Assembly (NCBI GenBank): GCA_031763025.1
Contig: JASSKH010000028.1
Location: 6,020,824-6,084,823, forward strand
Origin: Macrocystis pyrifera
Lineage: Eukaryota > Sar > Phaeophyceae > Laminariales > Laminariaceae
Length of the DNA: 64,000 bases
Direction: 5' to 3'
The notes below the pieces were generated by a model. That model searched no databases. It had not been told where the DNA came from and saw nothing but the letters and a program-made list of their open reading frames with translations. Positions 18,905 through 20,424 of this stretch are shown in pieces; the stretch's first letter is position 1, and every line of letters starts with the position of its first letter. Position numbers and translations under genes: made by a program.

Positions 18905-20362
18905 GCCGCCCCCCTCTTCCACCCTGATATATATTAACGACCTGATAGTAGCAGTCGAGGGAGCAAGGCAGGGAGTCACGGTAGGGGAAGATACGGTGTC
19001 GGGATTGATGTTTGCGGATGACTTCGTGGGGATATCAGAAACACCTGAAGGATTGCAGAAACAAATAGAGAAGGCGCTAGAATACACCAGGAAATGGAGA
19101 GTGACGGCGAACGTCAAGAAATGCGCAGTAGTTGTTTGCCACGAAGATAAGGTAAACCCGGTAAATTTCAGTTGGAAATGGGGAGAAGATGAATTGCCGA
19201 TTGTAGACCAGTATACATACCTTGGCGTAGAGATCTCAAAAGACTGCTCTTGGGACACACATATAGCAAAAGTAATAGGAAAGGGTAAGGCACAAGTAGG
19301 CAAGATGGATGCGATCCTAACAGACGCGAACCTTGACACTAGGATTAAGAGATGTATCTTGATGAATGTGATAGTACCAAAGCTAGAATATGCAGGAGAA
19401 GTATGGGAAGGGAACGCGAAACTCGTAAAACACTTGGAAACAGTACAAATGACAGCAGCCAAAAAAATCCTCAGATGCTCAAGTACGACTAGTAATACAG
19501 TACTAAGAGCAGAACTGGGAATGCGCCCACTCAAGACAAATAGAGACATGAGAAAGTTGAACTGGCAATATAAAGTAAGGAACATGCCAAAAAAGAGGTT
19601 GCCAGCCATAGTTGATAGAGCTGTATGGGAGAAAAGTATCAAAAGGACGAGCTGGAATAAGGTGGGATGGCGTAGTTGAGAAAGTATGGAAGGATCTAGG
19701 GGGAAACCAAGTAGAGATGATGCCCGCCGGGAAGTTTGGGAGGTACAAGGCAGAAGTAGAAGAAAGGATAGAAAGAAGGGAAAGGCTAGCGCTAAGAAAC
19801 AAGGTGGAATCGGAAAAAAAAAAACATAGAGATATACGAGGGATTGAGGGAAGGAATAGGAATGAAAACGTATTTGCATGGCCCAATGGACTTCGCGAAA
19901 ACGCTGAAACTGCGCTTTCGTGTAGGGGACCTGGCTGGACCTGCCAGAAAGAAGAAAGAGGTACACCAGTAGCCGGGAAGAGGAGGAAGTAGACGCACAG
20001 ATGTGCCCGTGTGGCAAAGCAATAGAGAGTAGAACTCACATAGTAGGAGAATGTGAAATATACAAGGAGGAACGGGATGTGTTAGAAGAGGAGATGAGGA
20101 AAATAGACGAATGTGACATGGAGGAGTTTGATACAATGAATAGCAGCGAGAAAGCGATCGCTATCCTAGGATATAGATGGTGGCCACAGGAGGCCAAACA
20201 GGAAGGGGATAATATTAGCAAAAAGTTTCTATGTAATTTATGGAAACAACGTAATGAGTGCCCAATTGTTGGAGGTGTCTCTATTAGGAGTAGGAACGGT
20301 GCTCCGTCTCGAAAGGGATGCGTGGTCAATGGTCAAATGACTAAGGCAAGCAACAAATGAGT

Positions 20363-20424
<62 letters not shown>
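18905..20424 (+). mobile_element. Non-LTR retrotransposon (LINE), 5'-truncated, poly(C) tail
   Basis: The best LINE copy in the window. The first frame (to 19679) encodes the RT palm and thumb: YINDLIVAV, the catalytic GLMFADDFVGIS and the downstream KCAVVV and YLGVEISKDCSW motifs. The 5' part of RT and any endonuclease are missing. The frame is then broken near 19640, in an A-run near 19815 and near 19930. The C-terminal zinc-knuckle region ([17 protein letters not shown]) resumes at 20001-20360. After the stop the element reads GAGTAC and then C-run 20364-20424. Known LINEs usually end in A-rich or short microsatellite tails, so this tail is odd. It is clearly inactive. Confidence 0.9.
18912..19679 (+). 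pseudogene. LINE reverse transcriptase, partial
   Basis: About 255 codons of RT with the FADD catalytic pair intact. A post-RT helical region (RIKRCILMNVIVPKLEYAG) follows, shared with the copies at 1-494 and 57.9 kb. The N-terminal RT motifs are absent and the frame is lost at the 3' end, where a one-base change separates it from the KGRAGIRWDGVVEKVW segment in the next frame. Confidence 0.85.

Follow-up and report, generated by a model that had tools for sequence, protein, structure and literature searches.

The tails and targets of LINEs are mostly A-rich or short repeats. In the eel, the UnaL2 LINE and its SINE partner have a common 3′ end, presumably bound by one reverse transcriptase (RT). 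The giant kelp elements described here differ from the eel pair in having a C-run where short repeats stand in the eel, and a conserved RNA stem has no covariation support in kelp. L1 and Alu are known for the expansion of their A-tails on insertion (PMC3415434). They resemble the kelp families in that a homopolymer lies on the element's 3′ side and a LINE helps a SINE; in contrast, the kelp run is C rather than A and is present at both junctions. Some HERO families and Togen, whose site is (TG)n, are microsatellite-specific non-LTR elements, and the clades named as containing APE-type target-specific elements are Tx1 and R1 (PMC4640811). The kelp elements, like Togen and HERO as presented there, probably insert into abundant, mostly harmless simple repeats; unlike them, the probable target is a mononucleotide C-run, found on the 5′ side in only 49/84 junctions.

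The closest described system is in another brown alga. Ectocarpus carries RTE-X LINEs (RTEX-1, RTEX-2_Ec32) and a non-autonomous element of about 600 bp, RTEX-N1_Ec32, that shares their 3′ end (PMC12477816), so 3′ sharing between LINEs and SINEs is already known, brown algae included. The two algae have in common an abundant LINE and an abundant non-autonomous element, whose 3′ end is conserved and whose 5′ region has no known source. This comparison rests on the published description of the Ectocarpus elements, and the nearest named proteins to the kelp RT piece come from Ectocarpus (unnamed products; 66% over 91% and 72% over 62%). Unlike the kelp case, the Ectocarpus RTE-X account mentions no C-runs, the word "homopolymer" being absent from its main text (PMC12477816). 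A literature search gave no report of a poly(C)-tailed or C-run-targeting LINE, nor of a poly(C)-targeting APE-type LINE that multiplies its landing sites; this is a weak negative, since "poly(C)" is unsearchable and subscription papers lay mostly outside the coverage.

The giant kelp assembly comprises 537 Mb in 35 scaffolds and 188 contigs, from PacBio Sequel II reads (PMC10498591), and the genome examined here holds 537,376,219 bases in 223 contigs. The window, the whole 64-kb stretch of DNA that was analysed, contains the LINE copy of main interest at 18930..20364 on the plus strand (nhmmer, positions 2–1427 of the LINE 3′ model). The copy is 5′-truncated and retains the last part of the RT, the C-terminal region and the 3′ domain; its RVT_1 match at 18879–19679 (E 3.8e-6, 27.2 bits) falls under the Pfam cut-off of 29.6. 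The domain it has in common with the SINE-like family extends from GTGCTCC to GAGTAC (20299..20364, plus), with 57/70 positions identical to the SINE model, and a C61 tract follows at 20364–20424. A C-rich 5′ junction, CCCCCCTCTTCCACCC, lies at approximately 18909..18924 on the same strand.

The window has four further LINE copies. The minus-strand copy at 10025..10660 has C10 (10655–10664) at its 5′ end and C12 at its 3′ end, the latter read as G12 on the forward strand (10011–10022). On the plus strand, a copy of 61 nt at 48798..48858 is little more than the 3′ domain, with C13 GGCC (48779–48791) before it and C30 GGCC (48864–48893) after it, and a copy at 57987..58976, ending in C20 (58978–58997), is split by an inverted-repeat element at about 58549–58655. 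That element and another at 17517–17612 are short and MITE-like, with ends like TACGGGGGTCC..AAATAGGACC. The last copy, at 3..491 on the minus strand, is cut by the window edge and has C17 (502–518) upstream of its 5′ end.

The full domain order is seen in one copy elsewhere (loci L047 and L045), with broken frames: an ORF of 193 amino acids in which no Pfam match was found, an apurinic-type endonuclease (Exo_endo_phos, E 2.7e-12, L047:1539-2342), the RT (RVT_1, E 3.6e-14, L047:3004-3699; phmmer to L1 ORF2p, 9e-7) and the 3′ end. At E ≤ 0.001, 475 of 554 candidates are relatives of the RT piece. Copies start anywhere from model position 2 to 1365 and have the 3′ end in common. By its predicted RT, the apurinic-type endonuclease upstream of it, and 5′ truncation with a constant 3′ end, the LINE is assigned to the APE-type non-LTR retrotransposons.

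The SINE-like element is about 530–560 bp long and begins with TATATTATATACCTGG or a variant. A full-length copy of 552 bp (48976..49527, minus; positions 3–527 of the 527 in the SINE model) adjoins G13 at 48957–48969. Shorter copies on the plus strand lie at 16518..16707, with C24 (16707–16730), and at 17674..17848, with C12 (17640–17651) upstream and C44 (17848–17891) downstream; a short SINE 3′ end at 55118..55149 lies between C19 (55093–55111) and C14 (55152–55165). On the minus strand, where the runs appear as G in the forward sequence, the copy at 18227..18433 has C50 (18439–18488) at its 5′ junction and C19 A C15 at its 3′ end (G15 18191–18205 and G19 18207–18225), and the copy at 39586..39752 has a doubled end (GAGTAC..GAGTAC) followed by C25 (39542–39566). 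A short copy at 57538..57617 has C13 (57521–57533) and lacks runs of 6 C or more at the 5′ junction, while the copy at 62830..63062 has C105 (62726–62830) at its 3′ end and C7 G C7 TG C8 at its 5′ junction. The tract positions given in the preliminary description agree with these to within 1–2 bases, and at every tract it listed the copy runs from GAGTAC or a near variant into C on the element strand, as it had said of most of them. One short SINE 3′ end missing from its list adjoins C33 (G33 forward, 41816–41848) at 41849..41886 on the minus strand, the end being approximate.

Most full-length SINE-like copies looked at contain an internal T-run of about 10–30. ARAGORN (bacterial code) predicted 0 tRNA genes in six loci, and an Rfam search of one copy gave only two sub-threshold matches for a head; thus no tRNA, 5S or other known RNA head was recognised in the loci tested. 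The label "SINE-like" holds as regards the 3′ end in common with a partner LINE; a Pol III promoter or a tRNA, 5S or 7SL head, the other part of what the label implies, was not found, and the internal T-run also speaks against it. The element may be a non-autonomous relative of the LINE rather than a Pol III-type SINE. A three-stem RNA model of the shared end (GTGCTC/GAGTAC, GTCYC/GGGAT, TGGTC/GACTA) is conserved, but its stems pair in 93.4% of cells against 93.2% after shuffling, with one change on both sides, RNAalifold returned 0 pairs, and single folds gave z of −0.3 to −1.2. Since covariation gives the structure no support, it is not used as evidence.

The 3′ ends of the two families are homologous, beyond chance. 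When the last ~70 nt of the LINE are aligned to the SINE model, the score is 30, against a mean of 4.62 (sd 2.02, maximum 16) in 2000 shuffles, that is, 12 sd higher; the block-by-block alignment of both ends reported in the preliminary description is borne out. With up to 3 mismatches allowed, the 67-nt LINE end occurs at least 3,625 times in the whole genome (1820 and 1805 on the two strands) and a 64-nt SINE block at least 11,166 times (5544 and 5622), the reversed patterns giving 0 in both cases. SINE 5′ starts number 646 by pattern; the first version of the 5′ anchor, which was too variable, found 18 sites.

Nearly every 3′-complete copy examined has a C-run directly behind it. Genome-wide, a C8 starts within 3 nt of 1652/2434 (68%) exact LINE ends, a tally for the plus strand, the minus-strand tally being unused because one site was counted several times there. 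The other 32% of exact plus-strand ends do not pass this strict test; copies ending without a C-tract were what the preliminary description had named as evidence against its reading. In fetched sequence, among the 3′-complete copies, a run of at least 5 C begins within 30 nt of 48/49 LINE and 36/42 SINE ends, and a run of at least 9 C within 30 nt of 40/49 and 28/42. The base preceding the run differs by family: it is G in 27/44 LINE ends and A in 11/35 SINE ends. With a common 3′ end in two families and an element-strand C-run at nearly every copy in either orientation, the simplest reading is that one machinery recognises the end. The earlier proposal, that one RT recognises this end and makes or copies poly(C), is supported as to the single machinery; manufacture of the poly(C) by the RT is not established, the 5′ and 3′ runs being about equally long.

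Long homopolymers might arise in sequencing or assembly, and one place in the window invites that explanation: at 10864–11530, G400, T and G136 are followed by a 100-N gap and C30, on opposite strands either side of the gap. The gap means that the assembly may misstate how long the runs are. Nevertheless, that the C-runs themselves are artefacts is exceedingly improbable. In both orientations of the element it is the element strand that carries the C, at the 1652 plus-strand LINE ends and at many minus-strand copies, and a G-run of 9 or more was found behind 0/91 3′-complete copies (49 LINE, 42 SINE); the argument from both orientations, made at the outset, therefore stands.

The C-runs at 5′ junctions went unremarked in the preliminary description. 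They were counted in a sample of three parts: the 64-kb window, sixteen 10-kb regions and 30 loci that each surround a perfect LINE end. One locus, L012, was dropped as an inverted duplicate of L013, as were SINE-model hits on LINE ends and LINE hits overlapped by a longer SINE hit; the 5′ statistics exclude LINE copies that extend beyond the start of the model, and also any junction that contains N or is too close to the end of its locus. The duplicate belongs to a near-perfect inverted duplication (C209:6000001-6020000) just upstream of the window, with matches in mirror order about a centre near 6010000, which is either a real palindrome or an assembly fault.

Among the 84 usable 5′ junctions (41 LINE, 43 SINE), 49 have at least 7 C within 35 nt upstream (LINE 22/41, SINE 27/43), against a background of 2.14% of 60,204 windows, and 0/84 have a G-run of 7 or more in the same interval. 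In the random regions and the window alone, the corresponding counts are 5/12 LINE and 18/27 SINE junctions. The run usually stops 0–10 nt before the element's first base. C-runs on both sides of many copies make it probable that the run is largely target, kept on both sides. The remaining 35/84 junctions have no such run, so that insertion into C-runs is a preference and not a strict specificity, although insertions are concentrated in one repeat type, as in microsatellite-specific LINEs. Copies without a 5′ run, about a third, still have equally long runs at the 3′ end (LINE median 21, n = 15); some are rearranged, and others could reflect target deletions or an added tail. Copies are also stacked in one another's C-runs: 19 of the 84 have their start no more than 110 nt from the 3′ end of another copy, and for 14 of these 19 a C-run of at least 7 lies between. 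In one case at least (L027), the pair may be fragments of a single old copy.

Short stretches of C at the junctions might also have been lengthened by slippage after insertion, the elements themselves adding little. C/G runs are indeed unusually long in general: in 214 kb, 46 reach 20 nt against 11 A/T runs, and 27 reach 30 nt against 1. We judge this explanation very unlikely, however, as long runs are present even in young copies (of 30 perfect 67-nt LINE ends, 26 have at least 9 C, 3 of these after a short interruption, and the other 4 have C7–8), and the 5′-junction runs (median 13, n = 50) exceed in length the unattached runs of at least 6 C (median 7, n = 298; p = 4e-10). Run length was also set against copy age, and the relation is weak and not significant (LINE rho 0.27, p 0.08; SINE rho 0.28, p 0.10).

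The lengths at the two junctions bear on whether the run is target or tail. In LINEs with C-runs at both ends the medians are 12 (5′) and 17 (3′), the 3′ run being longer in 15 and shorter in 9 (p = 0.063); in SINEs they are 14 and 12.5, with the 3′ run longer in 10 and shorter in 16 (p = 0.15). As these differences are not significant, the data do not show that insertion generally adds C, and runs about equally long at both junctions point to insertion into existing C-runs. Three target duplications that include the run are convincing: C9 + 14 nt (L036), C13 + 10 nt (L013) and C8 + 8 nt (L028). Candidates are L032 and L033 with 2–3 nt, by eye, and L027 and the window copy at 48798 with 4 nt. 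Duplications of at least 5 nt occur in 7/78 copies, against a mean of 2.6 and a maximum of 4 with shuffled partners; most copies have no visible duplication.

The main alternative is that a tail is made during insertion, by the copying of a C-tailed RNA or by slippage of the RT, with the 5′ C-runs reflecting a nicking preference only. L1, for its part, prefers A-rich duplications. In keeping with a made tail, the 3′ run exceeds the 5′ run in the duplications of the LINEs L027 (34 vs 14), L028 (13 vs 8) and L036 (18 vs 9), and likewise in the window copy at 48798; copies lacking a 5′ run keep their 3′ runs, and which base stands ahead of the run depends on the family. In L040 a LINE breaks into a SINE close to the latter's end, with C28 standing ahead of A + C10; this A + C10 could be the SINE's own remnant, which would make C28 the best single hint of added C. 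Yet 5′ runs of 8–25 C, which by the logic of target duplication are pre-insertion DNA, are far longer than a nicking preference needs, and SINE 3′ runs are not the longer ones, being shorter than the 5′ run in L005, L013 (4061), L025 and L040. Some LINE cases thus suggest that the RT adds C besides the target, and the SINE cases suggest otherwise. We regard a tail made in this way as rather unlikely to be the whole explanation; target insertion is ranked first and an RT- or RNA-made tail second, and both may act together.

We propose that the APE-type LINE and its non-autonomous partner are probably inserted by one target-primed machinery that prefers an existing C-run on the element strand. 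The steps would be as follows. The endonuclease would nick the G strand within the run or next to it. The exposed G-run would then hold the end of the RNA, which is GAGUAC followed by G in the LINE and by A in the SINE, perhaps with some C, and would prime cDNA synthesis. The part of the run beyond the nick would stay on the 3′ side and resemble a poly(C) tail, and a second nick downstream would keep the run on the 5′ side as well. One C-run would in this manner become two, each a fresh landing site, and further C from RNA copying or slippage may be superimposed.

How little of the LINE is needed for mobilisation is raised by very short copies. In a random sample, 4/12 3′-complete LINE copies start at model position 1360–1365 of 1427, which is exactly where the shared domain begins on its 5′ side; other loci contain two more copies of this kind. 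The domain-edge copies, of 61–67 nt, are the one at 48798 in the window and those in L004, L011, L016, L017 and L019. Genome-wide, the shared domain counts 3633 + 3659 and the second 41-mer upstream of it 925 + 935, a fall that fits many domain-only copies and is confounded by sequence variation. A domain-only LINE class of 62–67 nt is therefore a lead, the short matches being near the detection limit. Several SINE copies of about 35–40 nt start at SINE model positions 487–493, which may reflect only that limit. A recurrent composite unit was also seen on five small contigs (C22, C55, C60, C77 and C84), where a LINE end and a perfect SINE block keep one order and a spacing of 704–712 bases.

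Possible targets exist apart from the copies. Of the 116 C-runs of at least 12 in the 214 kb, 27 border a 3′ end, 15 border a 5′ end and 74 are not next to a detected copy; three or more of these 74 turn out to be short SINE ends that escaped the models. No other clear family with C-tails emerged from the unattached runs, which yielded overlooked short SINE ends, local duplicates and weak repeats. Elsewhere in the window, a Copia-type LTR element (1705–8473; gag_2 E 5e-9, RVT_2 E 1.5e-45) carries repeated C-run units in its coding region, at 4467–5082.

It is tempting to take the proposal further, although in its full extent it is possible and short of probable: poly(C) would be both target and tail, runs kept on both sides would multiply the landing sites and help to explain the excess of C/G over A/T runs, and the shared 3′ domain of 62–67 nt alone would suffice for mobilisation, as independent mini-copies. 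Long C/G homopolymers may form G-quadruplexes. If the C-run is indeed target and tail, the kelp elements would allow a test of whether an APE-type LINE selects its insertion sites through base pairing of the RNA end with the nicked target. They would also be a source of the long C/G homopolymers of brown algae, which trouble assemblies, and would represent a mobile element that enlarges its own supply of safe landing sites.
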